From positions 267,827-331,826 of the forward strand of contig CAJNDT010001247.1 in assembly GCA_905221615.1 (NCBI GenBank): DNA of 64,000 nt, read 5' to 3'. Position numbers and translations under genes: made by a program. Source of the stretch: Symbiodinium sp. CCMP2592 (lineage: Eukaryota; Sar; Dinophyceae; Suessiales; Symbiodiniaceae). Shown one piece after another: positions 2,798 through 56,956 of the stretch (its first letter is position 1; every line of letters begins with the position of its first letter). Under the pieces are notes generated by a model, which searched no databases, was not told the DNA's origin, and saw only the letters and a list, made by a program, of their open reading frames with translations.

Positions 2798-3207
2798 CCT
2801 GGGCTGGTCGGGCTATGCAACAGCAAGGCTTGAGCACAGAAGGCGGCGCTCGGAAAAAGCTGCTCTGGAGTGCACCTAGCAACTGGCCACAAGGGTAAGA
2901 GGGACTGCGGATGCTGAGTGCTGGGCCAGGCACACGGGCTGGATGCTGTCCAATTAGGACACTGTGGCACAAAGTTTGAGCCCTGTTGCCATGGTGGGGC
3001 AGATGGAATCAAACAGGCAAGAAGCACAGCCATCATGCAGCCTACAGCCGTGTTGAGGTTGAGGCACTCAGACCTTCTAGTGCACCCATTACTGTTAAGG
3101 GTGGCAGGGTCCCGCTGTTTCGACAACATCTCTCTTTCTCAACCTGGCGGAGCCAAGGGGCTTAGCAGTAGCAGTAGTAGTAGTAGCAGTAGCAGTAGCA
3201 GTAGCAC

Positions 3208-3279
<72 letters not shown>

Positions 3280-3528
3280 GTTCCCCAACAAAAGGACTCT
3301 CTCTTGCTCTTTTTGCAGGGGCTAAAGGGCACTTTGCAGGACTCCCTTGAAGGGGTTTCTTCCGGGAGCCTTGCAAAACCTTTTTCGTGTGTACGTGTCT
3401 TCAAGAATGCCCTAAACCCCTGATACCCTTAAACCCTCGAACTCTTAGACCCTGGAACCCTGAACCCGTAAACCCAAACACAAAACCCTCATAGCCCTAA
3501 TCTGGCAGCCCTGGTGGAAAGAAAAGAC
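2798..3528. other. Spacer or intron between BBS2 exon 19 and the WW-domain region
   Basis: Contains the AGT microsatellite and, from about 3405 to 3500, degenerate CCCTAAA-like units. I see no further BBS2 exon here. If BBS2 continues off the left edge, this is intron sequence and the WW-domain region is nested inside that intron. Confidence 0.5.
3166..3279. repeat. (AGT/AGC)n trinucleotide microsatellite
   Basis: About 38 units of AGT with some AGC and ACT interruptions at the left end. It creates artificial poly-Ser, poly-Thr and poly-Tyr open frames on both strands that should not be called genes. It lies about 370 bp upstream (minus sense) of the WW-domain region. Confidence 0.95.
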
Positions 3529-3587
3529 CTCCGCTCCTGGGTCAGTTTCGCCTTCTGTGCCGTCAGCTCCCGCCACACTTCATTCTC
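3529..3587 (-). CDS. BBS2: BBS2 exon 19 (coiled-coil start)
   Basis: Encodes ENEVWRELTAQKAKLTQER plus two bases, aligned with EQDLIRELSQKKQNLLLE. AG|GAG acceptor, GT donor in phase 2, so the reading frame is meant to continue left. No following exon is recognised in the window. Confidence 0.82.
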
Positions 3588-9500: not shown

Positions 9501-12500
9501 GAGCCTGTTATGTGGATCAGAGACTGATGCGGGAGTTTGTGTTCCCGGGATGCTAGCAGAAACATCCTGCCATCTGTTTTGGGACTTTACCCTCAGGCTC
9601 GCATCACCTTAAACCTCAAAGCCTAAACCTACACTGCAAGACCCAAACCCAAACCCGAACATCGAAACCCTCTTCGGACACCAAAGCTCTGGAAGCTTGT
9701 TTGTGTCAGCTGAGATGCAGTTGACACGATGTTTGGACTTCACTCGCCACGCTCGGGAGAGCTTGTCCTCAAGCAAGGTTTTTGTCAACTCGTGGCATGT
9801 GGGCTTTGGTCTCGGATGAAGGTCCAGGATTTGTGGAGAAGGATCTCTAACAGCAGCAATTAGGTCGCTTCCGCAAAGGATAACCCGTCATGAATGAACA
9901 TCGTAGACCCGAAGCTGTAGCTGCTGGGGCCCCTACGCAAACTCCAGATAGGGGCCTTAATCTTAGTTGTCCAAATTCTTAGGGAACTATGAGAACTTGA
10001 ACTCGCGGGGCTATATTGGGTTCTGCAGCCCAAACCCACTTAGTAACCATTAGAACATGGTGTTGGGATGTGTCAGCGCATACTTAAAGCAGGACTAAAC
10101 TGGTGACCAAATGTTAGTACTGAGCATTCCGATTGCTGGCTTGACTTGCTCCAGGAAACAGGATAGCCGGTTGACGACGGTGGGAATGTAAAGTAAACCC
10201 CGGAAAAGTTGAAGCGCTGCCCACTCAGCTGCTCAGGCAATGCTTTCGGGTTCAAGTCCTGAAGCATTGCACCGCCCGACTAAACCCCAAAGCCCTACCT
10301 GGACCCTGAAAACCCCACGACATGCTGAGGGAGCTGTGTAAGGAAATCATGATAAGGGGCCCTCAAAGGCTAGGTTATTTGAGGTCAAGGTAGACCGGAA
10401 ACCACCAGGCCGAAACCCTAACCCTAAGATGGGTTAAGAGTTTAGGATGTAGGGTTCAAGCCTCGCATTACCAGGAATGACACCGGTAGAACACACCACG
10501 GCCATTCAAGCCCGGTCCAAAAATAGATTCTCAGGCCCTGAACTACAAAGCCTAAACCTGACACTAAACAATCCTTAGCTCCATACAAAAAACGAAAATA
10601 AACTCAAACCCTTAAAGCAAAAAGCCTAAACTCCGGCAGGATCTGATGTAGAATGTAGATCCCTAAAGGGGTTGTTTATATAAACTACCCAGACCCCCGG
10701 GAGGATCCAAAAAGTAGATCCCTTAATGGGGATTCCTATAAAGCACCCTTAGTAGTATCGGGTCCCAAATTAGGGGATCTACTTTCTAGATCCTCCCGCG
10801 GGTCTGGGTACTCTGAGCAGACCAGTGGGTTTTGCTTTGTAGATCCTCCCCGAAATCTGGGTGTAAGCTGGCTCCCCCTAAACTAAAAACCCTGAACCCT
10901 ACACCCTAAACAAAAAGACCCAACCCTAAACCCCAACCCCAAACCCTAAGCCATCATCCCTGAACTAGAGCCCTAAAGAGTACCAGACATTTAGGTGCTC
11001 AGGTCCAAAGTCCCAAAGAGATCAAGACTAGGATACCCAGTAACCTAAGAATAAAAAGGCCTCTCTTTTGGTATTGGGTTTCTTTATAAGGAACCTAGGA
11101 CTACAAAAAGGGAATAAGGGTACTACTGGGCATCCTAGAAGATCAGCCCAGCTGCATACACACCCACCGTGCCATGCATCAGCCTGGGTCTAAGGATGGT
11201 TGGATGCAGGGTTTTAGGGGGTTTTAGGGGATCCTAGGAGAGTTTTTTTTTTAAAGTGCAGTGGCTCTTTCTGTGCGATGCAGGAGAGTTTAGGGTTTAG
11301 GGAGCTTGGGGCTTAGGGAGTCTAGGGTGTAGGGAGTTTAAGGGTGTTAGGGAGTTTAAGGTATCGGCTGTTTAGGGGGTTTAGGGTTTTTAAGGTTTGG
11401 GGTTCAGGGTTATCCTGTACTTCTCGACACTACAAAGCCTCAGAGAACCCCTACATGACCCTTTGACCCTTTGATAGAACAGTTATCGAAAACCTAACGA
11501 ACCCCGTATAGAACCCTTACAAACCTACTGTACTCACTCTTCTCCCTCCAGGAGACGACAGGCAACACAAAATCGAAAGTTCGAACAACAAAACCTCTAA
11601 TCTGCAATTTATACCATGAAAGCGGGTGTTACCTTTAAAGATTCGGGTAGCGTAAAGTAGAAGAACACTCCTCATTACCTTAAAACAAAGTAAGCATAGG
11701 GAATCTCAGCACCATTGATCCGAAATCCGTGTTCCAACTTCCAGGAGCCTTCGGTTCACTACAAACCTGAAGCGCCGAGCCACGCGTAAGCGAATCGCGC
11801 CTTGTGGAGTGGCTCAATGCGCAAGACTACCTTCGCAAACGATCCCAACGAGCACTAATGTGTGGGAATGAACAAACTGCAATAGGGTTTTGGGGTATAG
11901 TTAAATGGGGTTTTGGGGTATAGTTAAATGGGGTTTTGGGGTATTGTTAAATGGTATAGTTAAATGGGGTCCGATATGGACTACCATCATCAAACCACTG
12001 ATTCCGATCCCTACAGCCTCACAGGACCTGCAAGGCAGAACCTAGACGCAGTACCCAGAAAGCACAATGACAATACTCCCTAATTAAGGAGCATTCCTTA
12101 GAACATCAACCGTCTTATTTTCACTGAAAGAAGGTTCCTCAAGGTATGCAGCACGTTTCTGCATGGCTTAAGCAATGAATGCCTTGACATATGCGCAAGC
12201 CTTCCTATTGAAATTTTAGACATATTCTTGACTACAGAGTGCACGGCCCAATACTGCTAACACAGGGGCCTTACTGATTAGAACAGACTTCTGGGGCATA
12301 TTAAACTATAAATACAATAAGAAAACCCCCCAGAACCCTGTTCTAATTATTAAGACCCCTGTATTGGCTTGTTGGGGCTCTTTTGGTGGAGGCGAAAGCT
12401 GATCTCAGTCAAGCCACATCAGTCTCGGTGATCTCCTTGAGAACTACCTCAGGTTCTCTTGAGCGAAGGGCGGCGCAACAGTAGGGTCTCGGCGTTCCAG

Positions 12501-15500
12501 GACCCCCCCTCAAGTGCTCTTGAATAGAGCCCTCATGGTCCTCAATAGTGGGTATTTCGGGTATAGTCGTGGGTAGTTTGGGGGGTCTAAGCTGCTGTAC
12601 CAAGCATTATTGGAAGTCACACGATGCTGCAGCAACCTGGTCGGCGCTGCAAGCTGCCAAAAGGGACTTGTATTAATTTGGGGCATTATGGCATGGGACT
12701 AGAGGGAACGTGATCACCACCACTTCTTCGTGGCCTTTGAAAGAAGAGCAACCGAGCCTCAAGCCTCAAACCCCGACACCCCTGAACCCTGAATTCTGAA
12801 CGCTTAGCCCCTAAACCCCGAACCTGGGTTCGTGTTATATAAGGAACCTAACTTGTAAGCCACCATAATCGGGATTTATCGTAAATAATTAAGTATAGGT
12901 TTCCTGAATATGCTAACCCTTCACAAGAACCCATCAATAAACCCTAAACTGCCCGAAACTCTGAATCCCCGAAACCTTAAACCCCAAATCCCCAAAACCC
13001 CTAAACTCTAAAACCCTGAGGTCCCCCCGAAGCCCTGAACTAGGGGTCGATTTCAACAAACCACGAAATTATTTAATGTAATTGTAGCTGTCTATCAAAC
13101 AAGGGAAATGAACTACTGGTGATGATCTAATCAAGGACCCCAAACCTCTGGGAATTATGGTATATTCCTTATTATGGGTAGTGCAGGATTTATATCACAA
13201 CAACCCTACTATTTGCTTAAGAACCCCCAAAAAATAAAAAAAAAAATCCTTATGGGGGTAATATAGGGATTATTATTTTTTATTTTTTGGGGGGTTTCTT
13301 AAGCAAATCGTAGTTTATATCACAACAACCGTCTTGCCCCAAATGGATACCTAGCAAACTGCAGGCTCGAAGCTTCGTTCTTGAAGGCTCGAATTTCGAA
13401 GTCCTCCGTGGTTGAGGGTCAGGGGTTTAGGGTTTAGGGTTAGGGGTTTAGGGGTTTAGGGTTTAGGGTTTAGGGTTTAGGGTTGAGGGGTTTAGGGTTG
13501 AGGGGTTTAGGGTTTAGGGTTAGGGGTTTAGGGTTAGGGGTTTAGGGTTGAGGGGTTTAGGGTTTAGGGTTGAGGGGTTTAGGGTTGAGGGGTTTAGGGT
13601 TCAGGGTTTAGGGTTGAGGGGTTTAGGGTTGAGGGGTTTAGGGTTTAGGTCCTCCGTTCCGCAGATGAGCTCCGGCTGGCCATCGTCGTCGACGTCGCAG
13701 AAGGCGAGTGCGCTGACGTTGTCACCTTCAAAGCTTACCCAAAAGGTCCACTTCCTCTATCATACATGCTTATAGGTTAGAAGGGGCCCCCACCCTGTAA
13801 TCGTGACCATAAGGATTATATAGGATTATATTAGGGCCCTATTATATTCCTATTATACTACTATTACAGGGTGGGGGCAGCTTCTAACTTACAGGTCTAC
13901 AAGGGGCTGACGCATAGTAGCCTCAGAACCAAGCCATGATCTACAAAAATTGCGTGACCCTACAGGGAACTCCAGAAACTTGGAATATGGAATAATGGTA
14001 GGATCCCCTGTAATTTTGCCTTAAAGGGGTTACGATAATGATATTCCAACTTTCTGGCTTCTACTGTAGCTATACTGAACTTAGAACCCTAGCAAAAATA
14101 CAATTTTAGCTGTTTCTTAGGGATTATAATAACCCAAAATTAAAAAAATATTTCAAAGTACCCCTAAGACTATTTACTAAGTCCCCCGACCCTCCAAAAG
14201 TGTTAATATTTCTAAGTACCCCTAAGGTAGACCCTAAACCCTGAACCAACCGGCTAGAAGGACTCAGAGGCCCTCGAGGCCCTGAGTCGAATGCCATAAA
14301 CCTTATACTAGACCCAAGAATAATTGGAGGATCATGAGACTTAGTAAGGGGTTATAGGTACCTGATTTGGGGTTATAAGTAATTATAAGTATAGTTACCT
14401 GAATGATAACCCTAGTCTAGACCCAAGAATAACCTACGAATAAAAAGGGTGCCCTTTTTGGTTTAAAGGGGCTTATAAGGGAACCTGAACCCTTAAAAAG
14501 GGAATAGGGGCCCACTCGAGGTCCTAGTATAGGAGCCCTAAACACCTATAATCTTTTTTTTACAGGCTGGCAAGCGAACTACTGTAAACAAATTATAGGA
14601 GCCCTAAACACCCAGAGACTCCAAAACCCCTTAACTAAGGAATCCACCTTAAATCTTATTACGGTTCCTATTGTAATTTAAGGTAATTATATTGCTTAAT
14701 TATGGGTTTAGGGGAGTCCCTGGGCACCCAACCCTCAAAAGCCCCTCCCTATGAACCTAAACCCTATCGTACCCTTCACAGTATCCTTATAGGAACCCGA
14801 AGCCATAAACCCTCTAGGCAACACAAACTCGGATCCCTAACAACCGTGCCTGTGACGGTCCAGTAGAGCTCGCTGCCCTCTGCATCAAAGGCTTGGACGG
14901 AGCCTCGTTGAAGGGGTTTAGGACTTAGGGCCCAGGGTTTCGGGTGAGGTGAAGGGTGGGGAAAGCGGCTATTCCACGGTTTAGGGTTCATGTGTGGGCC
15001 TTGATGGCTAGAATCAGCTTATGGGGTTTAGTGTATATAACTGTAGTGTAGTTGTGTTACCCCAAGGGTCCAAGTACCTAAAAATTATATACTCTCCAAA
15101 ATCATAATCTGCAGAACTATGATTGTAACACCGAATTAATTATTGGGTCCGTTGGACCCTTGGGGCTAAGGAGCGCTAAGGAACAATAGACCTAACTCTC
15201 CAGGCCCTTGGCAGACACTCGCAAAAGCTGAAGCCCCCAACCTTGAACAGTCTGAACCCGGACCCCAAAAGGATTTAACAATAGATCCCTTAAAGGAGTT
15301 CCCATAACGAGCCCCTAAGTAGTACAGGGTTCGGGGACCTGAATCTACTTTTTAGATCCTTCTGGTGGTCTGGGAAACGCCAGGTGGCAATTGCCGCCGA
15401 CCACGCAGACAGGCTGCTCTATCGAAGCGAGGTGGCCGTAGGTGATGACGTTCACCTACCATAAGGATTTGGGGTTCAAGGACTGTCAACTATAACCCTA

Positions 15501-18500
15501 AGGGTCCAAAGGACCCAATAGTTAGGTACTTGGGTTTAGGATACTAGTTCTGTAGGCTACTATTTGGGAGAGTATATGATAATTAGGTACTTGGATCCTT
15601 AGGGTAAGCTGACAAGAAGAACCGTGGCCCCCGCTCCCCAAAGGGTCGTAAGTAACTATATAGTAAAATCTAGGATCAGGATTTCTGGGCTAGGAATTCT
15701 TATTCTCATTTGGGGAAGTACCCCACCTGACAGTGCCACCCATTGGGCTACCCTAGCAGCTGGTGACGCTAGCATGCTCAGCAAGTAGTTTCTTGAAGAG
15801 TTATTTGATTGGACTCTGGACTCTCCTATGCGACCTATCTTCTTGATATGAGGATAGGATTCATCTTGGCACTCGAAAAAGTCGTATGTTCACATCTGGT
15901 GGTACGATCCTCCAACTTGCAGGTGCTTGTGCCCAATGGGTCCTGGGTAGTTACTTGAGCCACTTTGGGGTTATGGATCCGCCAAGGTGTCGACATCCTG
16001 GACATCAAGCGGTCATACCGGGCAGCGAGAGGCCAGCCAAAGCCCCGCTGCAGCTTTTGCTATGGGTTTCTCTTCCTGTAGATTCACGTGTGCCGTGTAA
16101 AATGAAACGGCCATAGATTTCGCTTCCAAGGTGAATGACGGTGATTACTTCCTCAACTCCACACCCGAAATGGGAGTTTCCGAAAATAGGGGACCCTGAT
16201 GCCTAACATAGCACCCTAAATAGTAGGATCCTTATTGTAAGGACCCCAAAATAAGGTAGCCCGCCCTTATTTTCGGAAACTCCCTTAAATAGGACCTCGA
16301 ATTACTCCGGTTCTGGGCAGGCTGCTCCATCGTGCACGTCCTTAAAGAAGAGATCCGCATTCTCCTGGCCCCCACCAAGCTTTCCCTAAGGCTCCATGTA
16401 CCTATATAGTATATACTTAGGCCTTAAACTACCTATACTAGGATACCCAGTAACCTAAGAATAAAAAGGCCTCTCTTTTTGGTATTGGGTAACTTTATAA
16501 GGAACCTAGGACTACAAAAAGGGAATAAGGGTACTACTGGGCATCCTAGCCTATATAGGGACCCCTTTTAGGCTTAAGCATCTACTAGATCGGTACATGG
16601 AGCCTGTGGCTTCGGGCTTAGGGATTTGCTCCGGGGTATGTTGCACCACGCATGCGTACGCAGGATACTAGGTTGGCCCTATAGAGGTTCTGAAAGCCTT
16701 TCGTAGATCAAATCCTCTTAAGCCCAATGAAGGAAAATGTGGAATATCTCTCACGCCTACCTGGGATCCCTTTGGAATCGTCGTGGGCCCTCGCGACCAG
16801 GTCGGCTTTGAATGGGAATGATACACGCCCAGGCCCTCAGGGAGGAGCTAGACAGTAGAACCTCTGATTTGATGTCCTAAACTCGGTATAGGGTTTAGGT
16901 CTAGGGTTTACATCTGGTGGTTGATGGCACTGGGAGGACGCCCCTAAACATCAAGGATCTGAAAGGCCCTGCTGCAGTAAGCTTCTTTCGATTGCCTCCC
17001 TAACGTTCAGGAATCCTTATCCTAAACCCTAACATTCGGGACTCCCTCTCCAAAGTTGAACAGGGCCACGAATTCAAAGTTTTACGTTTAGAGGTTGAGG
17101 GGTTGCAGTCCTCCACGTTGTAGACCTTGAGGCGTAAGGGTCTTCATAAACAGAGCTTTGGGGGCATATTATACTATACTCACAATAGCATAGTATCGGC
17201 AATGATTTAGGCCCCTATATGCGGCTTTTCGAATCCTCCACATCGTAGACCATGAGGCTTAGGGGTCTTAATAAATAGAGTAGGCTTTACATGCAATAAG
17301 GAGCCCCCTACACCCTTATATGCGGCTTTTGGAATCCTCCACATCGTAGACCATGAGAGACGTCTGAGTGCCCACCATGAGCATGTCCCGCTGGATGGCC
17401 GGATTGAGCTCACCTCTGGGCAGCGGATAGCTACCCAGACCCCCAGAAGGATCTAGAAAGTAGATCCCCTAATATGAGGCCCTATACTACTAAGGGTACT
17501 TTATAGGAACCCCCATTAAGGGATCTACTTTTTGGATCCTCTCGGGGGTCTCAGTAGGTTCCTGAGTAGCCCCTTTATAATCAGGGCACCCTTTTCCCTA
17601 CTACTGTATTTGGTTTTTTGGTAAGGGAGCCCAAAAAGAAAGAGGGCACATGGGCAATACTGAGGAACCGAAGTATATAGGATTGCATGTTTCAGGTTTG
17701 AGTGTTTAGTCTGCTAGGGTTTTCTCTTGGGGGGAAGATGCTTTAACTAGGGCCCCACAAAAGCACATAAGCAAACATTAGGGTAGGGATATCCTTATAA
17801 ATGCTTATGCTTATGGGTCCCTAATTAACGTTTTTTGGCCAGGGTCCTTGACGAATCCAGCGCTCGCGGTTTACATGCACATGGGCAAAGATAAGAAGGA
17901 CACGATGTGAAGACTCATCGTCGTAGGTATTGCTACGGGTGTCACTTTCCCAAAGAATAATACGGTTGATGATATAAATCCTGCATTACCTTAATGACCC
18001 TAAACTATGGGAGTTATGTGACATTCCTTATTATGGGTAATGCAGGATTTATATCATCAACCGTACTGACGACGAAGATAGAAACCCTACAGTCAACTCT
18101 CTAGGTACTTAGGACCCGTCGGGATTCTAACCCGAGACATCAACCCCACATCCTAGGCCTGAGCCTAAGCCACAAAATCCGACATCGACATCCTGCGCGC
18201 CAGAAGCGCTACCACCCCTGCTTGACCTAAAAGGCTCATGGGACTTAGTAAGCGCAGTTACGAGTACCCTCACTGGGGTTATACGCATTTAGAATCATTT
18301 CCTTACTTATCACCCTAGTTGCCAGGTCCGACGAATCATGAACGCTTAAGTACTCATGATCGCTTAAGTACTCCTGCCACAATCCCTCAACCCTAAACCC
18401 CTAAAACCTTCATGGCTCGGTTTCGGGTTTTAGGTGGCATTCGGCCTGTGACCACGGATGTGATCTTTCGGTTGATGTTGAGGAACATGACCTTTGGTCT

Positions 18501-21500
18501 GGGTTTGGTTTTAGGCCTAAGGCTTACCCAGAGAGCCCAATACCCCCTTAGTTCAGGAAGATAGCTCAAATCATAATATGAAGCAATGTGGCTTAATTTA
18601 TATAGGGCTTCATAATATGACTTCTTTAATTAGGGGCTATTGGGCTCTCTGGGTAGATACTGGGGCGTAAGCTTTGGATTTAGAAGATGGGGATTGTGGC
18701 TCTGCCTAAGCACAAGCACCGAGTAAGGTCGATGGCTGAAAAGGCATATTGGTAGTTGTCAAAATTAGGGCCCCTTTTGCGTTATTCTAAATATTAGTTG
18801 CCGTATTATAATAGGGACCCAAAAAGGGACCATAATTTTGACAACCACCCATATAGATCATGCAAGCTTCGGATCCTTCTAGGGCTCATACTCTCAACAG
18901 TTGTAACGAGAGTGTCGAGAAAGGTTGTGGCTTAGGCTTTGTTGGTTGTAAGGCTTGTTGGATTGGAACTTCTGTCAGTCGGAATATTTAAGTCCAATGC
19001 TATTCCTTCGGGTTCCTGTTTATAAACATTGCACGTTGTTCCCCCTCAAACCCTGTTCTAATCATGAAGGCCCTTGTATTTCGGGCTCCTGATTTATAAA
19101 CATTTTTCGTTGTTCTCCCTCTCAAACACTGTTCTTTCTCAAAGAGGCCCTTGTATTATGCACCTTGACCCCCTGATCTTTTGCATGAAGGCCCCTTTTT
19201 ATGCACCTTGACCCAACACCAACAAGGCCGAGCAGAGCACTTGAAGTCACAGACAAGATGACTCGGCCTAACTTCTTGAAATATGAAGAACCCATGAACT
19301 TCAAAGGGGAAAAGGAGGGACCCTTAATGGGGACCCCTACCCTATAATGGGCTATATGATGGGTATATAACAGCTATATCAAGGGTATACCTAGGGGTCC
19401 TTATTAAGGGTCCCTCCTTTTACCCTTGAAGAACTAATCCCGGCCACACCGAAGCCCCTAGACCTTGAGAGCTTCAATCCTGCAACCCAGGTTTCGCACC
19501 CTCCACACGCGTGCCACAAAGTCCAAAACCAATGCTCAAGAAATGACGACTCGAACACACTAGGCCGCCCTGTAGATCTTGATCAAAGCTGACCCGCCTT
19601 TGTGGACTATTTTCGAGAACAGTACTCAATCATAGCTGGCCCCCAAAATCCCACGTGTGCATCGGAGAACTTCGTCAGGGGGGTTTGAGAGTGGTGCCTT
19701 GATACAGGAGTCTGAAGTCTTCGTGCTAGTATACCCCTAAAACCCAAACCATAAAACCCAAATGCATGTGCCCTACACCAAGAATAGTCCGTCATCAGAT
19801 AAGTGTAAGAGAATGTATCCGAGAAGCTCGCAGGGCCCTACTGTAGCTGCCTGAACAATTGCAACGGGTTTGTAGGGTTACACATACATAAGAATACATA
19901 TATACATATATGTGTGCCCGTAACATGTATCTGTGGATAAATGTGTATAGGTGTAAACATGTATGTGTATATATGTATATATACATATATCATCAGCTAA
20001 ATGTAAACAACCAACTATATAAAAGCTAAATCTGGGGAAATGAACTAAGTACTATTTCTGCAGGCGCTCATATTATTCTAGACAATTTGGGGCCCATATG
20101 TCTTGACACTTGCTGGCCTCATTCTGCGGATTCTCGACGCGGTTGTGCGGGCAGTGGATCAGCACCTACAACTTGGAGGATCACGGGACTTAGTAAGAAA
20201 GGCTATAAGTACCTTAGTTGGGGAAATATGTAATTATAAGTATAGTTACCTGTGTTAAATCCCTGGTTACTAAGTCTCCCGACCCTGTAAGTAGCCCTAA
20301 ACCCCCCTTATAGAACCCTTATAGATCCCTTTAAAGGAGCCCCTATAGAACCCTTTTGGAACCTTTAGTTACCAAGTCCCATGACCCTTTAAGAAGCGCT
20401 CAAGGCTCGCCGGAACCCTCACAAAGTCCACCGTGCAAGGACATGGCACAGGGAAATCATAGGAACCCCCCAAAAACCACCTATTTCCAGGAAATGCACA
20501 AAGAAACCGTAGTAGGAACCCACCAAAACGTAGGTCTTGTCGGCGTAAGGTGGTTTCTAAGCCTTTTGGGCTAGGGTTGAAGGGGATCCTGGAATTAGTA
20601 CCCCAACAAGGTTAATGGTTACCTACTCGCCTACGAGGGCTGCAAGACGCACACTCAGAACCCACGTCTTACTTGGAGGATCATGCGACTTAGTAGATAA
20701 GGTTATAAGCACGTTGATCGGGGTTACAAAGAACCATGACCCGTTAAGTACCCTAAACCCCCGCTTATAGAACCCTTATAGATCCCATTATAAATATAGT
20801 TGCCTGAATTATGACCCTGGTTACTAAGTCCCATGACCCTTTAAGTGCCTTCCCGGCGGTGGTCCCTGCAGACAGGCAGGGATGCTTGCCATCGTAGCGG
20901 CCCACGGCGACCAGGCCTTTGGGTATGGTTTTGTTTACAAAAAGGGACTTAGTGACTCCCACGAACCTCCAAGTAGGGTTCAGGCTTTAGGCAAAATCCC
21001 TGGTTTAGGGTTTCAGGTTTTAGGGCTCAGGGTCGAAAGTGTCAGGCTTTAGGGTTCAAGATTTAGGGTTTTAGAGTCGGGGCTTGAGGGTCTATTTTTA
21101 CAGTGCCGGGTTTCGAGTTCTCAAGATTTGGGCACGACCCAAAGGGTCCTGAGTACCCATATGGTAGAACGTAGGGTTTCTAGCTTAGGAACTACTATGA
21201 TGGTTTCGGGAAGTATCCCCCACAACAATATCCACATCCCTGGGGGAGAAGAGGTTCAAGGCTTTGGGGTTGAGGGCTGGAGTTGAGGACTTCAAAGTTA
21301 GGCTTTGGACGTTCGCGGTTGCGCGTCGGTTTAGAGTTGAAAAGGGGGTAGAGGGCAGAGGGTTTGGGGGCTTAGGGTTTAGAAGCCGCGAACGCTGGGT
21401 TCGCATGTTTGCCGGAACCGACGCTGGGTTTTCCTTTAGGGGCTCCTTGAAGCTTTCCTCAAATGCTTCTCTAGGGTTACAATGAGAGTTCAGAGTGCAT

Positions 21501-23279: not shown

Positions 23280-23999
23280 GGCTGGTGAGTGCTGTTTTTC
23301 TGTGTGTGTGTGTATTTGTGGTTGCTTTTGTGCTCTTCTTGCGTCTGTCTGTGCAGCTTAAGGTGTTTATGAGGTGTAAGGGTTCGGTTAGGGGGTTTAA
23401 GGTTTGCAACAAGATTTAGGTGCACGTTGTAGCGGTGGGTTCCTTTATGTCGGGTCTTAAAAGCAAGCGTGCTTGATCTAGGGGTCTCAGATAAGTATAG
23501 AAGTATGAGTAGGGTTTTAGGGTACGTTGTACAATGATTGTAACAAAGAGCCCCAGAGTAGTATTGGTAACAGTTTAGGCCCCTATATCAGGGACTCGTG
23601 TCTGCGGGCATCGTTATTTGAGTTATGGAGGTGCAGTGCTGCACACTCCTAACGTTGAGATCGCACTTTGATTGCATGACCATCAGTGTGCCATTGCAGA
23701 GCTGCCCAACTACCCTGGCGGCTTGAGGGATTGGCGATGTAACGGGAAATATGGCTACAGTTCTCGGAATCTGGACCAAGCCTTCCTTAAGGATCACACG
23801 TCGCATGACAGGCGTCCATATCTTACGCGCTAAATCGTATATGGTACGAACCATGTTCACAAACTGTTTTAGAGTCCATTTGGTCCTTAGCAAGCCACCC
23901 CTTCATCTCAGTGCCTAAAGCGCTCAACCTAAATACACCCTTCAAGCTTCATCCCAGCAAAGGGCAAGCCCCACTAGGGCTCGCTACTACCCTCCCTAC

Positions 24000-24121
24000 A
24001 TGGAGGATCATGGGACTTAATAAGTAAGGTTCTACGTGCCTTAATTGGCGCAAGATGTAATTCTAAGTATAGTTACCTTAATGATAACCCTAGCTACCAA
24101 GTCCCATGACCGTTTGAGTAT
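24000..24121. mobile_element. MITE family 2
   Basis: CATGGAGGATCATGGGACTT ... CCAAGTCCCATGACCGTTTG. Confidence 0.85.
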
Positions 24122-24194
24122 CTTACCGTACATTACGTGGGAAGCTACGGGTAGGGCCTTGCTCAAGGCTTCTGATTTTTAGACTCTTTCGAGG

Positions 24195-24306
24195 CACATG
24201 GGTAGTTCTGCAAAGTGGTGTCTCTTTTTAGGTCCCCGACAAACAGTACGGCACCCTTATAAACAGCAGCCTAACTAAACCCTAATTTGGAGAACTACCC
24301 ACATGG
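24195..24306. mobile_element. Hairpin related to family 5, TIR CACATGGGTAGTTCT
   Basis: CACATGGGTAGTTCT ... AGAACTACCCACATGG with core CAGTACGGCACCCTTATAA, like family 5 but with changed arms. Confidence 0.7.
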
Positions 24307-24657
24307 ACCCTTACGGTGGCCGTAGTTCATACCCCAGAGCTTCGGCTGATTATGAAAGCCTCTGTATTGCAGCCTTCTAGTAACCCGTCTAGAAACCCGT
24401 ATAGAACCCCTTAAAGGTCTGGGTACTGGGTTTTGCTTTGAAGCAAACCGTTGAGCGTGCCCTCGTTTGGGTCTGTTGTTTACGGCTTAGGGACGGGACT
24501 ATAGTTTGGTGCTTCTGGTATAGGGGTTAACATTGTACCCACGTACCTGCTCTGGGCCCACGTACCTGCTCTGGGCTGGGAAAACTGCAGAAGCATGAGG
24601 ACTTGAACAGGTGCAGCTGTGGTCGCTTAGCTTCACATCAGCCAGCCAGGCCCCCGT

Positions 24658-24806
24658 AGATTATAGGATCCTTAAGGGGGGTGGTTCAAGGGGGGAGGGT
24701 ACTAGGGAGCTTTGGGGAACCTTAGGGAAGCTTAGGGAGTATTGGGGAATAATGGGGATTACTAGGTTACCAACCCCCCTTGGACCACCCCCCCTTAAGG
24801 ACATCC
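24658..24806. mobile_element. J-family MITE, TIR ATTATAGGATCCTTAAGG
   Basis: ATTATAGGATCCTTAAGG then GGGGTGGTTCAAGGGGG faces CCCCCCTTGGACCACCCCCC and CTTAAGGAC. Relatives at 34366 and 61774. Confidence 0.85.
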
Positions 24807-25546
24807 TGAGTAGAGAATCTACGCACGACAACCTCGAAAACCATTCTACGCCCGATCTATGGCTCAGGATTCAAGGCTTGAGGTTCAGGAGTTTTAGGGC
24901 TTCGGGTTTAGGGTTTGAGGTTTAGGGATTTAGGGCCTGAGGGTGTAGGGTATACGGGCTTGGGGTCTTAGGGGTTAGGTGATTAAAGGCGTAGTACAAA
25001 CGTACATGAGGGCTAGGCTCGGGCTTGGGCCACTTAGGGAGTTGCTAGCGCCCGATTTTTCAGGGGCCCAGAGCCCTAAACCCAAAGCCCTAAGCATTAA
25101 ACCCCGATCCCGAAACCTCCAACCCGAAACCCTAAACTTTTACAGGCAGTAAAACTCTAGACCCAGTGCTCCTGGTGTGGCTCCTCGTCCAGGAGCTCAG
25201 GGCCTAGGGCTACAGAAACCCTAAACCCTAAAGGGGTTCCTGTATCAGCCACTTGGTCCGGAAACTTAAAAACGCCGCATGACCTACCCAACACGAACCC
25301 AAACATCAGTGTCTGACTATTCATTGAATCGTTTCACAACTGGAGACGACAAACCCTACACAGTCTACTATAGGAGCCTTAGAAATTAAATAATATGGAA
25401 CCCCCCAAAAAATCACCCAAAATAGTATTGGTAATGATATAGGCCCCTATATATCAAACCCTGAGATAATAAAGCCCTCTAAACCCCATATTCCCTTATA
25501 TACCCTCTGGATTCTTTGAAGGAGCCCGTTTGGGATCCAAGGGCGC

Positions 25547-25615
25547 CTAAGACTTCCTCAGGGGCTCGGGCGCATCGGTGAGCTGGTTTCCACCGGCATC
25601 CAGCTTCTGCAGCTC
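25547..25615 (-). CDS. LRR exon, possible C-terminus
   Basis: Encodes ELQKLDAGGNQLTDAPEPLR, then KS and TAG. The LxxLDAGGNxLTDAPEPL pattern is a full LRR. AG|GAG acceptor 20 bp from a family-7 MITE. The TAG may be real, or a GA donor (CTGAG|GAAGTC) may splice past it. Confidence 0.65.
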   Translation of the reverse strand, partial: ELQKLDAGGNQLTDAPEPLRKS

Positions 25616-28600
25616 CTCCGGCGCAATCCACAACATGGGAGTTTCCGAAAATTAGGGGTACCTAAGGGTTCCTTTTAAAGGGTTACTCTAACGGTACTAT
25701 AAGGGTTCCTTTAAAGGGCTCTTTAAGGGTGTAGAGTTGTCGGAATTAGGCGTAGCTTATTTTGGGGTCCTTATAATAAGGATCCTACTATTTACGGTGC
25801 TATATTAGGGTCCCCTGTTTTCGGAAACTCCCACGTGAAAAGGACTGACGGCACGTAGGGAAGAGGGTCTTAGGGCGAGCTCAGCTAGGCCCCAACTACG
25901 ATCGGGGCCTTTATAATGGGAATAGGGTTTTGGGACCAATTATATATGCTTCCAAGATAACTTCAAAGTTAAATTTTTAAACTTTAGCCTCCTTATCATG
26001 GTTCATATAGAAACCCGAAAAGTTGAAGTCCTAAGAGCCAACCAGACGAACGCCGAGAAATGATACCTAAAAGGTCATGGGACTTAGTAACTAGGGTTAT
26101 ATCTCAGGTAGCTATACTTATAACTACTTATAACCCCAACTAACTGTACTTATAACCTTACTTACTAAGTCCCCACCCCTATGGATCCGTTATAGAGCCC
26201 TTTAAGGAATCCCTTAAGGAACCCGTGAAGTTACTAAGTCCCATGATCCTCCGAGTAGGGCTTGGGAGGTCGGAGGGTTTCGGGCTCGGAGTTCACCTTC
26301 CCGGGGTCTTACTTGGAAGCTTAGGGGACTTACGGCGGATGATATAAATCCTGCATTTCTTTAAGGACCCTAAACTATGGGAATTATGGCATATTCCTTA
26401 TTATGGGTCATGCAGGGTTTATATCATCTACCGTAGTAGGTACGGTTGCTTGAAAGGGTTCCTTCAAGGGCTCTTCGAAAGAGAATCTATAGGGGGTTCC
26501 ATGGATGGGAGGGGTTTGAGAGTTGCTTCGGGGCCCAGAGGATTTGGTAAGTAGGTGATAGGTAGGGATATAAGTAGGCTTTAGAAATGGAGTCTCCCCA
26601 ATTATAACCCTACTTATAACCTACTTATTAAGTCCTCTAGGCCTCTGAGTAATCCCTCAAAAGCATGGCCAACCAGAAACGCGACAAAGAGTAAACATTA
26701 CACCCCTAAACCTGGAATCTCCGAAGAAGCAAAGTGAAGAAAACGAAAACCTGGTGACCTGTGAAACGCTCCGGAACCCTGAATCCCTACACTTCAAAAG
26801 CCAAACCTCCAACTTGAGCTTCCTAATTTAGGCCCTGCCCGAAACGCGAAACCCTGAACCTTTGACCCTTCTTGGAGGTGCGGGGCACATGTAACTCATC
26901 AGCTGTACATATTGCCTGAGCAAACGGCTTCTGTAAATCGAAACTGTTACTGAGTTGTAGTCACAGTCGTGACTAGGGTTTACGCATCCACAACTTAGAC
27001 CCCCGCGAGGATCTAGAAAGTAGATCTCCTAATGTGGGGCCCCTTTTTTACTGAGGGTACTTTTTAGGAACCCCCATTAAGGAATCTACTTTTTGGATCC
27101 TCCCGGTGGGAAGCAAGTAAGACTCCTGCAGAGACCCCTTAAACTTGACCCCGAAGATCAACCGCCCTGAGAAAAAAAAGGCGTCGAACCAAGATCCCAG
27201 TCCCGTTCCCTCAACCCGAAACCCTCAAACCCAAAGCCCAAAAGCCCTAAACCCTGTAAAACCCTCAACCCCTAAAGCCCTAAAACCCTAAAGCCTTAAA
27301 CACCTAAACATCCCTAAAACCTCAAACCCTCAAGCCCTGAAGCCCTAAAATTCCCTAAAGCCTCAAACCCGAGATCCTATACTCCCTTAAACCCTAAAAC
27401 CCTACATCTAAAGCCCTGAAGCCCTAAAGCCTCAACGCCTGAAGCCCTAAAATCCCCTGAAACCTCAAATCCTCAACCCCTGCAGCCCTAAAAACACGCG
27501 AGATCCTCCCCTAAACCCTAAAACCCGACATCTAAGGCCCTGAACCCTAAAAACCTCAAACCCGAAACCCCCGTCCTGGCAGCGGGACACGCCTTGAAGT
27601 GACAGCAGGCCGCAACGCTCGATCGAGAGCTCCTAGGAGGGGGTGTCTATTTTTGGGTTTAGGGGTTTAGGGGTTTAGGGTTTAGGGGTTTAGGGGTTTA
27701 GGGTTTAGGGGTTTAGGGTTTAGGGGTTTAGGGGTTTAGGGTTTAGGGGTTTAGGGGTTTAGGGTTCGAGGTTTCTAAGTAGCCCATTTGTAATTTTAGG
27801 GTTCCTTGACTAGGAGGTTTAGGGTTTCTCTAAGGGTTTAGGGTTGATGGTTTAGGGTTCCTTTACGGTTTTAAGGTTTTGCTCGTTTAGGGTTGATGGT
27901 TCCGATAAAGGGTTTAGGGTTTCTCTAAGGGTTTAGGGTTGATGCTTGAGGGTTCCTTTACGGGCTTACGGTTTTGCTAGTTTAGGGTTGATGGTTCCGT
28001 TAAAGGGTTTAGGGTTTAGGGTTCCTTTACGGGTCCAGGACTTACCCAGGTTCCTGAGTAGCCCCTTAGTTTTAACGGGTACCCATCTTTTCCTACTATT
28101 TGGTTTTAGTAAGGGAACCCGAAAAGGAAAAACAAGTGCAACCGGATACTACCAGGGAACCTAGGTTTTGAGAACCAAGACAAATCCTCGCTCCTTTCCT
28201 TCGAAAAGGTCGGCTTAATGCGGGGTTGCCTTGTAGCATCCTCAATATAAATATGGTTACACCAAAATACGGAACTACTATGGAGACTATAGGTAGTGTT
28301 TAGCTGTCAGCGGTTCGAGGTTGGGGCCCGTGCGAGGCCTTCTACTGTCTCAGGGCTTGGTATTCTTGGCATGAGTCTGGAACGTGGAGGGTCGGGGGGC
28401 TCAGTAAGTAGTTATTTTAGAGACTTAAAAGTACCATAACCCCAATTAGGGTCCCCTTTAAGGGACGAATAAATCTACTTATAACCTACTTACTAAGTCC
28501 CCCGACCCTCCAAGAAACGACCTCCTGCTTGGTACCTTTGAATTTCGCCTACACGTTTGGGACATGTGGCTCGCCGTGGAAGTAAGCTGTGCCGGCAAAC

Positions 28601-30158
28601 CCTTAACAGGAACCCTTAGAAAAGCCTTACTCCGCCTTGATTAAGGTCCCTCTATGAAACCCTACTAGTAGCCCTTCCCTTAAACCAGCCCTTAAGGGAG
28701 CCCCGAAGGTACGGCAAGTGAGTGAATGAAGGAAAGTTCGAAAAGGAGTGCGCGGTGGGTAGGTTAGGGCCCTCCCAGGCCAGCACAGGCTACTGGTTAC
28801 TTGCCCCGCGAGCGCTGGTCCACTCGGGGTACCAGCTCCGCTACCAATTTGAAATTGGGGGGCTTTTTCACCTTGAGCAATTCAGGTGATTCTGCGGGTC
28901 CATGTGTACACTGATCAGGTACTAAAGCTGCAGGCAGTACACTTGACTTGCACGTAGCAAGAAAGTTCTTTGCCGCCAGCCTTCCCATAGCAACGCACAA
29001 GATATACTCTCACTAATGTGCAAGGAGGCTTGAACACCTCGCCAGAATGCCGAATGAACCCCTATAAAATTCGGAATGCAGCCCTATATACTTCTTGCAT
29101 TTATGCAGCTCCCTATAGTAACTTACGTGCTGCGAACCTACTAAACCCGAAACTCTACATCCTAAGCCCCAAAGCCAGAACTTCAAAAAACTGCACACCC
29201 CCACACCACTAAACTTCACTAAACCCCAAACCCCTAAACCTCTAGACCCTCCCAAACCCCTAAACCCCCCAAACCCCAAACCTCTGAACCTCTGAACCCT
29301 CAAACCCACACCCCTAAACCCCTGAACTCCAAAAACCCCAAGTATCGATCTGAAACCCTGAAATCCCCTAAACCGTAAACTAAACCCTAAGTCACCAAAC
29401 CACTACACTTCACTATCGATCCAAACCCTACGAACCCCAAAGCTTCACTCAAGCCCCCAAACCCCCAAGCCCCTAAACCCCTGAACCCCCAAGCCCTACT
29501 GTTGATGATATAAATCCTGCATTACCCATAATAAGGAATATACCGTTATTCCCATAGTTTAGGGTCCTTAAGGTAATGCAGGATTTATATCATCAACCGT
29601 AGTGATTCGCTTCTGCGTTGTCCCAAGACTGCCTGCATAAAGCCTCAACCCCAAATCCCCACACCTCTGAACCCTCAACTTTCTACCCAAAACCCACCCA
29701 AAAACTCCCCACCCCCCAACAAAAAAAAAACAAAACAAACATAAAAAAAACAACAAACAAAACAGAGGCGTCGATTACCGCAACCCCAATCTCCGGCCTC
29801 GAGCTCTTGAAGTGGCGGCAGCCTGAGGACTAGGAATCCTTGCCCTCAGGGAATCCTTCGGTTGATGATATAAATCCTGCATTACCCATAACAAGAAGCA
29901 TACCAGAATTCCCACAGTTTAGGGCCCTTAAGGTAATGCAGGATTTATATCATCAACCGTTTTGGAGGATCTACAGTTCTCCTTTCAGGTTTCCTTCGAG
30001 GGTCCAAATGCTCCTTAGAATAGCAATAACATTAATATGGATAGTAATAACAATAAACAACAATGTAAATAATTGATAATTCAGTAAATCAATCAAGCAC
30101 AAAGACACAAATACATAATGAATAACCAAATAAAATAAATGAACATGATATATATATT

Positions 30159-30213
<55 letters not shown>

Positions 30214-49600: not shown

Positions 49601-52600
49601 TAAGGGTTCTATTAAGGGTACCATAAGGGTTTAGGGTTTAGCGTAAAAGGGTCCATGTTCCCAAATAGTATATACTTTGGGCCCAATGTACCTATATAGG
49701 GAGTACTTTCAGGCCGATGTATATATTGTGTGGGTACATGGACCCTTAGGGCTTGCGGGTTTAGAGATTAGGGCTTGTGGGCTTCGCCTTACAAAGCTTT
49801 CACAACAAAACCCCTGAAAGGATCAACCAACAATTAAGGAATATACTTTGGATCTTATTAGGGCTCCTTTTTGAAATTAAGGTATATTCCTTAATCAAGG
49901 TGTGTTGGAGTCTCTGGGAATTCTTCAGGCCGCTATACTACTCCATGCAAGTGGCTGTCCTCAGGTACACGAGCTTGGACAAGGCTGCCGTTCGCCAATC
50001 CTCCCTTGTAAGCTGATTGCCAAGGATGACCTGAATCAGAGGGGAAAAGGAGGGACCCTTAATGGGGACACCTACCCTATAATGGGGCTATGTAATGGGT
50101 CTATAGTAGCTATATTAAGGGTATATACCTAGGGGTCCTTATTAAGGGTCCCTCCTTTTCCCCTTGACCTGAAAGCAAGAAGCTTCAGGTTCTGTTCTGT
50201 ATAGGAATCTTTAAGGGTGGCTGTTGCAAGGTAAGACCCTAAACCCTAAACCCCTAAACCCTAAACCCTAAATTAGGGTTTACCAGGGCTTCGGGGTAGG
50301 CGTTTCTGGTTTGCGGTTTCGGGCATGGGCAGGTCAGCAAGTGAGTACAGAACTACGTGTTTCGCAATGTCTGACCGTATATATGCCAAACTTAAGCGCC
50401 ATGCTCTCGTCAACAACTTATTACGACGCTTCTCACAGACACCCATGCAGGGGCTTTCGGAGTCATCGGTGCATCGTGTCTGCTTTTGTATTCGACACAT
50501 CTTAAAACTCACAATGTGAGTTTTAAGTTACATGTCATGTAACTCAAGTCTCGCCATGTCTGGCCGTTGACGTCTCTGAGATACCCTGCCTACCGGATCA
50601 TGGGAGTTAGCAATACTGAGTTCTACCATAACAAGGAAGACCACATTATTCATTATAGGTCCCTATTATGGCCACTTACTTGGGTAGTTGTCAATATTAT
50701 GGTCCATATTGGGGTAGCCTAAATATTAGGTGCCGTATTATAATAAGGACCCGAAAAGGGACGCTAATTTTGACAACCACCCAAATATAACCATAGAATA
50801 GGGATAACCCATGCTGTGGTTCTGTGATAGAGTGCCCTCTGCTCTGAATCTTCCGACCGGGTCGCCATTGTGGCACTGTGGTGCACAGTAGAAGAAAGCT
50901 TTCTTCCCTGATCATGAAAACATGCTTGATGGTCCAACCGCGAAAAAACTAGGGCGCATGTCTGGAAAGTCCGGTCGTATGGTGCCACCGCAGAAAACAA
51001 GGTCGAAGAAGAATAGGGAAGTAAGCCCCAAACAGACGAACGCAAACCAACGCAACTGTTTCACGAAACCAAACCCAGGCTAGATATTGTCATTGTATTA
51101 TGTATGTATTCATATGTATCTACTCTACATACATATACACATGTATATATATATATATATGTATATTTCCACACCTTAATACAAAACACATACATAACTT
51201 AATCAACTCAACTGCGTACTAAATCCCCTGATTTTGTAAATCCCGCCAGCAGCCCCACGTCCCTTCGCCTTACACCGCAACCCACCCTAAACCTGAACCC
51301 TATAGCCTCTAAATCCTACACCCTTGACCCCAAACCCTACAATCTAAACCACGTCACAAACGCCCAAATCCTAAAATACAACCCTAAACCCTGCACCCCA
51401 CACCGTAAATCCTAAACCCCAAACAAAAATAAAGCCACAAACCCTACAAAACAGAGAAACCAGTTCTTGATCGCATAAACCCTAAACCACCGAAAACCAT
51501 GGACACCTGAGCCTTACCTCCAAACCACCGACTAACCAGTGGCTTTGGGGTTGGATTCAATTGGCTCTCTTTGACAGGGATTATCATCATCCCTGATTCC
51601 TTAGCTCCCCCAATATCACCCTAAACCCTAACTAAACCCTAAACTTTGCCGTAAACCCTCAATGGTTAGCCGAGCATGTGGCTAGGCTCTCCAGTCGCGG
51701 CGTATCGCGTGCAAGGATTCCGAAGGTCTCGGTGCTGAGGAGCCTTGGAGATTAGGGCTCTTTCAAGGGCCCCTGCCAGGGATCCTTGTAAGAGGGGTTG
51801 AGGGTTCTTTTTCTATTTTTGTGAGCATCTTTTTGAAGGGGTTGAGGGCTTAGGGTTCAGGGTTTAGGGCTTTAGAGTTCAAGGTTCCTTGTAAGGGCTC
51901 CTTCAACGGCTCCTTTAAAGGGATCTGTGTCGGAATCCTTGCAGAGATCCTTTAAGGGGACCGTCTAAGGGGACCCTGAAAAGGGATCCGTTAAGCCTTC
52001 ACTGGAAGGATCCTGTATTCGGGGTTTGGATTTAATTCTGGTGGCTTCTACAGAACTGTCTAGCTCCCCTTGGCGACTGCTCTGAACTGTACGGTAAGGG
52101 TACCACCAATCCAAACCCAAAGCCGAATTCCAAATACACTCTAAACGCCAAACCTCTTATGTAGCCTCATTCCAACATCCTAAACAACAAGCACACAACC
52201 CACCCCAAGTGTCCTGACCCCTCAACACTCAGATTTCTGAGACCACACAACAAATCCCGAGGACCCTCTTCCTACTTGTCCAGTATCCTTGCCCAGACCC
52301 CCGGGAGGATCTCGAAAGTACATCCCCTAATTTGGGGCCCTATACTACTAAGGGTACTTTATAGGAACCACCATTTAGGGATCTACTTTTTCGGGGGCCT
52401 GGGTGGGAACTTAAAGTTAACCTTTGGAAGTATATTGGGATTATGTTGGGGTCCTAGTACCCCAAAAGGTCCAAGGCTACCTACTCTGCGACCAAGCTTT
52501 AACATTTTTATGGAAGGTCCCAACTTTCCACGGAGATACGGAGAACCCTTACGAAAAACTGCAGAAGCCTTCCGCAGTACCCTTATAAACAGCCTATTAG

Positions 52601-54123: not shown

Positions 54124-56956
54124 CTGGAGCTGCCACTTGGATGCATAGGGAGAGCTTTGTGGGGTTTAGGGTTTAGGTTTGAGTTGCAGGGCTTCATGAC
54201 CGCAACTGTTGAACTTCCCTTAACCGTAACTAAGCCCTAAAACCACACCCCTGATAAAGCATATCCCAGACTCCGAATGTTCAAGCCCTCTACCTTACAC
54301 TCCCCTGCCCCGAGGAGGATCTAAAGCGTTTGGAGCTTAGGGCTTCCGGTTGTGGGGAAACCATTGGAGAGATCTCCTTTCCAGATCCTCTGATGGTCAT
54401 CCCGATTCCCAAAGCACAAGAACCCAAACCCCCTTTGCAGGATCCAGAAAGTAGACCCCTTAATCGGGGTTCCTGTACAGTACCCTTAGTGGTATAGGGC
54501 CCCAAATTAGGGGATCTGCTTTCTAGATCCTCCCGGGGGTTCTGGGAATGCCTTGCAGGCCAAGCCGTAAGCCCGTAAGCATGTTTGATTCAGAACAGAA
54601 GTCCTATCCTTCCCTGTGAGTTCACATTATACCACTAAGTGAACACCTTAAATAGGTATAGGTACGTGGAGCCTTATACATACCCTAAATATCTCTATGC
54701 TTAAACGAACGTTTAAAGGTACCCTGTGTGCCCTTTAAAGTAAGAAGCACCGTGAAGCCTTGCCAGGGAGGAATCCCATGTCCCTGGGCACACACATGCG
54801 CGAGTCCAGGTACCTGGGCGGGGTTTGGGATTGAGGGTTCAGGGTTTAGGGTTTAGGGCTAAGGTTTAGGGTTTAGGGTATAGGGTTTAGGGTTTGGGTC
54901 TACCTCAAAAGTATGTATAAGAATAGCAGCTTTCTTAAGCTCTTGGCAATTAATCTACTTATTTTAGGCTTACCTGGATCCCAAATCCGCAACCTTAGGG
55001 CTCCAAGTATACAAGCTGTACCTACTTCGGGGTCTAAAGTCCATAAAATTAGTACCTGCTTTGGGCTATTTGGACATCCAGGGGGAAGAATAGCCTCCGA
55101 TAGTTGTTAGCCATTATTCTACCTATTTTGGGGTGTTAAGGGAGGGTTTCATCATGCTGCGGGGCTTCAGGGATAATGTAGGCGCGTGGAGAAGTAAAGT
55201 AAGGTTCTCGGGTATATTATACGATACTACAAGGGCTATTGCGGCTATTCTCAGTGCTTGTGCGACCCCTCCATAGAGGGTTTCAGGATTCATGCTTTCG
55301 GCATCAAGGTTTAGATCCCAGGCTATACACCTGCATCCTACCTCGCGCCACACCTTCAAACAAATCATGCTCTCCATTATATATTGAATTGAATAGATTG
55401 AATTCAATGCCACCGCAAAGACATAAGTCCATCGGTAACGGTAACGGTGCGACAAGGGATCGCTGTAATGCCAAACATGGAGGATGCTACGATGCATAGA
55501 TTTCAGATCCTGAGTTTTCTTAGCCCCTTCGTGTACGCATAACTTCGTCTAAAGCCTAAACCCCGAACCATGAACCCTAAACCCTTAATCCTAAACCCTA
55601 AACCCTTAATCCTAAACCCTAAACCCCCCGATTCCCCGATCCGTCAAGCGGGTTTCGGTGCTTTGCCACAGATTTTACTTTTTTTCGAGCGAACTGATGT
55701 AAACAAAGGCCTATTTTACATGGCAATTGCATGGGAATTCTGCCAGAAGCAAATACTGTAGGGGCCTTAGACATTAGAGTATGATTTCGGAGAATATATA
55801 ACATTATATATCATAACTATAATCAGGAACCCTAAGGACTAATATTGGCAAACATTTCCAGGACCCTCCATGTACCCTCAAATAGGGGTATATGGTCCCA
55901 AATTAAATAATAGGCATTTAGGGTCTAATTGAGGGTAGATGGAGGGTCTAGGTTATATAAGGAAATCATATCAAGGAACCCTAAACAGGTAGGTTCTTCA
56001 GGGTAAATTTGAAGGGCTTATATAAGGAAATCATGTCAAGGAACCCTAAAACTAGGCTGTTCAGTAACACACTGGGAAAAAGTATATACTTTTTAGGCTT
56101 CTTATTTTATAATAGGAACCTAGAAACCTGCAAGTAAAAACGTGTGCCACTGAACAGCCTGGAAAATCTTAGGATGTTATCTTTGTCGGCCTTAGAGAGT
56201 AGAATATGATTTTGGAGGATATGATGTAGCATAACTATACATACTCAGGAACCATATGGACTACTATTGGCAAACATGTAGGATGTTATCTTAGTCGGCC
56301 CAAGGTCTGCAGCCTACGTGCGAGGTCGTGGTTTAAGGAAAGCCTCGATCCATCTCTGTGCTTAGTTAGGCCCCAAAAAAGCACGTAAGCAAAATTAGGG
56401 TAGGGATATCCCATATAAATCCCCTTATAATGAAGCCCAATAAGGTAGGGATATCCCCACAAAATGCTTATGCTTATGTGCTTTTTGGGTCCCTAATGCT
56501 TGGCTTTTGCCCTAAACGGTGATGCCAGAGTCAAAGAGGGACCCAAATTCAGAACGACAACATAGTGCCCCACCCTCAACCCCTAAACCTCCAGCCCCGA
56601 TGCTCCAAAGCTCCGAAAGTGACGCAAGAATGCACCGATCTGTCGCTCCTTGGGCGAGGCACTTTGCCACAGCGACCACTGCATCGCTGACATCCTGCAA
56701 CGATTAACTACTATTTGCTTAAGAAGCCCCAAAAAATAAAAAATATATTCCTTATGGGGGGTAATATAGGGATTATTATTTTTTTATTTTTTGGGGGCTT
56801 CTTAAGCAAATAGTAGTTAAAGGCTTGGGCCTTAAGGGGCCTTAGGGGCCTTTCTGGGGTTTACGGCTTCTTCAAGTAGCTTCTTCTTCTGCAAGCTGTG
56901 ATTGAAGCAGAGGGAGAGGGCGAGGGCGAGTGAGAATACAACCCTAAACCCTAAAC

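Follow-up and report, generated by a model that had tools for sequence, protein, structure and literature searches.

Two copies of a foldback repeat family lie at the two ends of a BBS2 intron in Symbiodinium sp. CCMP2592 and probably colonized an existing intron

The window, a stretch of 64,000 bp from contig CAJNDT010001247.1 of Symbiodinium sp. CCMP2592, carries BBS2 on its minus strand, with 20 exons modeled within the window and 20 more to its left. The second gene is glutathione S-transferase (GST)-like, its only two matches being a glutathione S-transferase of Symbiodinium microadriaticum and a EukProt protein. BBS2 exons were placed using a protein of a relative, P0121, whose coding sequence runs uninterrupted along a contig of 2.3 kb that is presumably a transcript. 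The 20-exon model of the window encodes 346 amino acids and aligns without a gap to P0121 (95.7%) and P0122 (91.0%). Splice sites throughout were defined by protein homology together with the AG|G rule. Thirty-eight BBS2 introns and 10 further introns from the GST-like gene made up the set of 48 used below, with BBS2 intron 20 (12.9 kb) left out. The donors of these introns were GC (n = 33), GA (n = 9), and GT (n = 6), and the acceptor was AG|G in 47 of 48. Genome searches were performed against the 1.1-Gb assembly.

The left part of the window (1-19248; G000:C1247:267572-287074) forms a near-exact 19.5-kb repeat with G000:C1247:247222-266726. Across 19,250 aligned bases, the two copies differ by a single small gap and no mismatch, and the repeat ends at a run of 100 Ns left of the window; it is probably an assembly artifact, not a gene duplication. 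At window positions 17100-17340 (minus strand), the intron that follows BBS2 exon 5 contains two degenerate copies of a sequence made up of the last part of the exon and the beginning of the intron itself. BBS2 intron 20 contains a reading frame (L111; G000:C1247, about 242358-242630) with a YADD-like stretch, which suggests a reverse transcriptase remnant. Two translated frames of 23280-38280 (minus strand) had no match in Pfam, predicted-exon strings from 25 to 63 kb had no match in PDB and matched Pfam only below the cutoff, and the search of viral contigs gave no match. Protein kinase matches were identified on several contigs (e.g., G000:C5051), many in long open frames, and five kinase loci had a GC content of 53 to 54%; the assembly may be mixed, or there may be many intron-poor genes.

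A preliminary description of this DNA, made from sequence alone, had called the borders of BBS2 exons 2 and 3 exact, and they are: the junction is in phase 0, the peptide of the two exons (with a few residues past exon 3) matches BBS2 in PDB (6vbu; E = 9.8e-11), and the spliced model is ungapped. The ends of the intron between them (Table 1) read GGGAAG|GC + ACTTAAAGGGTC ... GATCCTCCAAGT + TGTAG|GTGCTG. As described, the intron starts with GC followed immediately by an end of the repeat family referred to here as family 2, the tip lying 2 nt inside the donor. A second family 2 tip is present near the acceptor, although its distance from the AG is 3 nt and not 5 bp; exon 3 begins after 5 nt. 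Both tips thus belong to one family, but they are the ends of two separate units in the same orientation rather than of one element. The outer inverted arms of the intron are 38 nt long and 76% complementary. Nothing convincing was identified in a search of the intron for tRNA or Rfam content.

Table 1. Coordinates of features discussed in the text (positions in the window)
Feature	Position	Strand	Description
BBS2 exon 2	20849..20916	-	Ends GGGAAG; BBS2 homology and ungapped spliced model
BBS2 intron 2	20166..20848	-	683 bp, GC-AG, phase 0 (GK|VLIH)
GC donor	20847..20848	-	Outside the element; GC before the tip in 3/92 sampled copies, T in 83/92
Family 2 unit A	20671..20846	-	176 bp; 122-bp unit with about 58 nt extra inside (20730-20787)
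Core of BBS2 intron 2	20394..20670	-	About 276 bp; probable remnant of older intron; sole full-length match is its own locus
Family 2 unit B	20171..20393	-	223-bp long form; 122-bp core at 20171-20292; genome matches
Acceptor stretch TGTAG	20166..20170	-	Separates element tip from exon 3; not part of the element
BBS2 exon 3	20118..20165	-	Starts GTGCTG; BBS2 homology and spliced model
Other foldback element	56704..56820	-	Ends 9 nt before a GST gene acceptor
Other foldback element	50040..50164	-	Ends 9 nt before a GST gene acceptor
Other foldback element	17431..17557	-	Ends 17 nt before BBS2 intron 4 acceptor
Other foldback element	18511..18670	-	Ends 19 nt before BBS2 intron 3 acceptor
Other foldback element	16389..16605	-	Ends 24 nt before BBS2 intron 5 acceptor
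BBS2 intron 9	13404..13651	-	GA-AG; wholly degenerate CCCTAAA array; 9-bp direct repeat ACGGAGGAC across both boundaries

The exact 26-bp tip of family 2 occurs 700 times genome-wide (333 + 367), with none for the reversed control; loosely matching sites number 59 in the window, whereas three simulated sequences gave 0, 2, and 2. The family was characterized from 92 tips in 90 loci, a nonrandom sample of the genome taken from 100 listed places of the 700; the other end was found in 86. The commonest length was 122 bp (46 of 86 copies). The tip was preceded by T in 83 of 92 cases, by C in 7, and by GC in 3, while the base next to the far end was A in 83 of 86 copies and T in none, with AG following in 48. 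Terminal inverted repeats (TIRs), short length, multiple copies, and a TA target site duplication (TSD), all features of a MITE, are present, and family 2 is a 122-bp noncoding foldback MITE that inserts at TA with some preference for (C)TAG. By these flank counts, neither the donor GC of BBS2 intron 2 nor its TGTAG belongs to the element. The TA flank is absent at both outer tips of this intron, which read C|ACTT (as in 7/92 copies) and AAGT|T (0/86 copies). A single contig (G000:C236; 1.34 Mb) holds 20 of the 100 tips listed among the 700, and the family seems to be very unevenly spread.

Searches with the parts of the intron gave different results for its ends and its middle. Many genome matches of unit A align as query positions 1-59 plus 118-176 (40 of 1,141 candidates scored), indicating that unit A is the 122-bp unit with extra sequence inside. 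With the whole intron as the query (40 of 4,546 candidates scored), near-full matches covered about positions 456-678, corresponding to unit B, at 76 to 85% identity; most stopped at or before the tip (674-678), while four extended 3 to 4 nt beyond it, to 681-682. Since each of the two end pieces has many repeat matches in the genome, the earlier proposal that the intron was remodeled by family 2 insertion is supported. For the core (20395-20670), the only full-length match was itself (30 of 30 candidates scored, in a search that skips very common words); of the 29 other matches, all short, 28 spanned about 43 bp and one spanned 85 bp at 78%. The piece at 20596-20638 (roughly 43 bp) recurs at 28 other places in the genome at 87 to 93% identity.

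The reading that we prefer, with a probability of roughly 0.6, is that two copies of the TA-inserting MITE colonized a pre-existing BBS2 intron 2, one near each end. Its starting points were directly observed: the anatomy, the repeat membership, the TA flanks of the family, the core without a second full-length match, and the predicted pairing of the ends. The intron would be an ordinary spliceosomal GC-AG intron older than the arrival of family 2. Two foldback copies would then have inserted in the same orientation, unit A directly downstream of the donor and unit B directly upstream of the acceptor (the order of insertion being conjectural), and the sequence between units A and B would be the remnant of the older intron. 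The complementary outer ends are predicted to pair in the transcript and so to bring donor and acceptor close, which might affect splicing. The duplex between the first and last 80 nt has a predicted energy of -48.8 kcal/mol, the first among 48 possible acceptor partners, and the intron, when folded together with 15 nt of flanking exon at either end, has a z score of -3.9 against 20 shuffles; unit A also folds on itself. End pairing was rejected as a general rule, since across the 48 introns own ends paired no better than swapped ends (P = 0.93).

Besides the absence of general end pairing, three observations stand against colonization. Random insertion would rarely place tips within 5 nt of an intron's two ends: under uniform placement, with tips in 29 introns considered, P is about 0.001, a value that is suggestive and not overwhelming, as it is uncorrected for roughly 20 families and for the choice of the case afterwards. 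Colonization does not account for the missing TA at both outer tips, and two clean TA insertions are not seen. Furthermore, the crowding of foldback ends near splice sites in general, described below, is not predicted by plain random colonization.

The preliminary description had also proposed that the intron arose from family 2 insertion. On this account, a family 2 copy that had entered a BBS2 exon was removed by splicing from the beginning, and both the second unit and the 276-bp core were added afterwards. The closeness of the outer tips to the splice sites (2 and 5 nt) fits such an origin, as does the (C)TAG preference: the AG that follows 48 of 86 ends makes AAG-TAG a latent 3' splice site. 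Introners are moreover documented in dinoflagellates, according to the sections of PMC11453091 and PMC9860276 cited here. Of the features expected of an introner, TIRs are present (the 38-nt outer arms and the foldback units), but neither a TSD nor carried sites that would give seamless splicing were found in family 2 (TA flanks; GC in 3/92; T in 0/86). An exon insertion that duplicates TA alone can be removed seamlessly only if splicing cuts within the TA, so that the intron would begin with TA, AC, or CT; a seamlessly born G[TCA]-AG intron is thereby excluded, while the spliced model has no gap against P0121 and P0122. The argument would not hold if the insertion had been imprecise or the reading frame had been repaired later, and it therefore lowers the probability of an introner origin without excluding it. 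The GC and TGTAG are not part of family 2, the core has no second full-length match, and none of the 45 foldback elements detected in the two genes spans an intron. No end-to-end similarity of BBS2 intron 2 to other introns was found. In a pairwise comparison of the 48 introns, no pair coincided at the donor ends and five ordered pairs did at the acceptor ends, all five involving the telomere-repeat-rich introns BBS2_9 or GST_hi. Family 2 tips occur in 11 of the first 29 homology-defined introns, and only in BBS2 intron 2 are they within 5 nt of the ends; in the ten others they lie away from the ends, the nearest being 30 nt from a donor.

The flanks of family 2 copies elsewhere were scored with a coding model trained on the two genes. 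Upstream, a score above 3 was obtained for 27, 28, and 20 of 92 flanks at 2, 20, and 50 nt versus 10, 11, and 14 at 100, 150, and 200 nt; downstream, the corresponding numbers were 16, 17, and 18 of 86 versus 13, 5, and 12. Median scores were negative, i.e., noncoding-like, at all distances, which counts against an introner origin. When the flanks were spliced together across the element and compared with random placements, with all thresholds looked at together, 4/86 copies versus 3/516 placements scored above 5 and 5/86 versus 10/516 above 4. At lower thresholds the copies hardly differed from random (6/86 versus 25/516 above 3, 9/86 versus 28/516 above 2, and 14/86 versus 70/516 above 0). 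A small minority of family 2 copies may therefore bound introns, visible at the highest thresholds only and with exons that are themselves predicted. With few copies resembling whole introns, a core without a second full-length match, TA flanks, and splice sites outside the family, the proposal that BBS2 intron 2 arose from family 2 is unsupported. We consider an introner origin unlikely, and a single family 2 insertion as the birth of an introner is rejected as the best reading on the grounds of TA flanks, element borders, and core.

Direct repeats at intron boundaries were examined in 49 introns. Their mean length was 2.82 versus 2.51 when permuted (P = 0.013), and repeats of at least 6 numbered four versus 1.97 (P = 0.12), with two 9-mers standing out. 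They are disfavored as TSDs. BBS2 intron 2 has inverted repeats at both ends and an AG|G direct repeat over the boundaries, the pair of features (with a direct repeat of 3 to 5 nt) that marks a Suessiales/Amoebophrya introner element in the loose sense, but the AG|G repeat is largely the ordinary splice consensus of the BBS2 and GST genes.

The preliminary description had further suggested that about 20 element families may have created or remodeled introns in this way across these genes. De novo detection, with elements pooled and not sorted into those 20 families, identified 45 foldback elements in 26 of the 48 introns. Their ends do cluster near splice sites, under permutation tests that assume uniform placement of elements in introns: 16 lie within 50 nt, versus 5.07 expected with independent placement (0 of 20,000 shuffles as high) and 5.77 with nonoverlapping placement (0 of 5,000), and 14 versus 5.23 when BBS2 intron 2 is removed. 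Within 25 nt there are 8 versus 2.61 or 2.99 expected (P = 0.0036 and 0.0068), or 6 versus 2.68 without BBS2 intron 2 (P = 0.045). Very tight clustering was rejected, with only 2 ends within 5 nt versus 0.6 expected (P = 0.12), both from intron 2. The generalization is supported in a weaker form, as clustering in these two genes, but not one element (0/45) spans an intron among the 48, even when 100 nt is allowed at both intron ends. The excess of element ends suggests that elements in this genome are preferentially inserted or retained near exon borders.

This crowding bears on a second alternative, in which the intron is old and the spliceosome shifted, after insertion, to splice sites that coincide with the element tips or adjoin them. 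Such migration would account for the exact adjacency and for the lost TA flanks, and foldback ends crowd acceptors in particular (6 versus 1.3 expected within 25 nt). The protein is, however, ungapped across the junction relative to P0121, so that any shift must have kept the coding sequence intact, and we regard migration as distinctly improbable. That unit A, cargo, and unit B were inserted as a single 676-bp composite block, as their shared orientation and the outermost tips at both ends might suggest, is very improbable, since neither a second composite copy (among 40 of 4,546 candidates scored) nor a second full-length copy of the core (30 of 30 scored) was found.

A second pattern at intron ends concerns telomere-type heptamers. 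In the first 100 nt of the 48 introns, TTTAGGG alone was present in 15 and CCCTAAA alone in 3, while in the last 100 nt CCCTAAA alone was present in 16 and TTTAGGG alone in 1. This orientation lock (Fisher test, 4e-6 overall, 1.7e-4 for BBS2 alone, and 0.048 for GST alone) was first seen on 49 introns and was not a prior hypothesis. TTTAGGG is the dinoflagellate telomere repeat according to the sections of PMC11453091 and PMC11508785 cited here. Around 90 codon-model exons (L009 to L098), for which exon and strand calls are uncertain, motif counts point in the same direction (upstream, 412 C and 132 G; downstream, 139 C and 220 G), and motif presence does so more weakly (C/G 32/21 upstream and 33/41 downstream). 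Four of five kinase loci were without a contrast (three had no heptamer and one had 7 and 7 upstream), and the remaining one showed a weak contrast in the expected direction. No account of orientation-locked heptamers appeared in the titles or opening abstracts of the open papers among the matches listed.

BBS2 intron 9 looks as if telomere-type DNA had entered an exon. Telomere fusion at broken exons is not favored as the origin of the pattern: introns with only the G motif in the first 160 nt and only the C motif in the last 160 nt number 7 of 48, close to the 8.3 expected if the two occurred independently (25 and 16 of 48). It is possible, although doubtful, that strand-asymmetric repeat cassettes make up or hold the intron ends and let introns be re-ended or regrown repeatedly. 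G-rich ends (TTTAGGG type and left foldback tips) would then follow donors and C-rich ends (CCCTAAA type and right tips) precede acceptors, and a foldback element with a G-rich left and a C-rich right tip would suit both positions in either direction of insertion. BBS2 intron 2 would represent one family at both ends, and BBS2 intron 9 an intron made wholly of telomere-type repeat. If true, the repeats would be carriers of splice signals, with GGG enhancers at donors and, at acceptors, a CTAAA branch point accompanied by a C tract. Together, the excess of foldback ends and the heptamer orientation lock provide testable leads toward understanding how genomes very rich in introns maintain their intron ends.

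MITEs that insert at TA (Tc1/mariner-type, Stowaway-like) are short, have TA flanks and TIRs, and occur in many copies. Family 2 (122 bp) shares these features and resembles such MITEs. Inverted repeats at the ends of an intron are insufficient to call it an introner; here the target duplication, the borders of the elements, and the intron's own core indicate that family 2 probably colonized the intron, and introner counts that rely on inverted plus direct repeats within introns may contain colonized introns. Dinoflagellate introners (Roy et al. 2023, as cited in PMC11453091; for S. microadriaticum, PMC9860276), as far as the sections cited describe them, resemble BBS2 intron 2 in being short nonautonomous elements with TIRs at the intron ends, in an intron-rich host with GC donors. 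Those of S. microadriaticum are described in the cited part of PMC9860276 as having 4-bp TSDs and carrying the 3' splice site, with the 5' site derived from the TSD. In contrast, the elements of BBS2 intron 2 belong to a TA-flanked family in which neither splice dinucleotide is contained, and the intron is a composite with its own core. The introner elements of Amoebophrya, in the cited part of PMC7789003, share with BBS2 intron 2 hairpin-capable inverted repeats at the ends and a short direct repeat at the boundaries (AG|G); unlike those variable, noncanonical introns, BBS2 intron 2 is GC-AG and its AG|G repeat is largely consensus.
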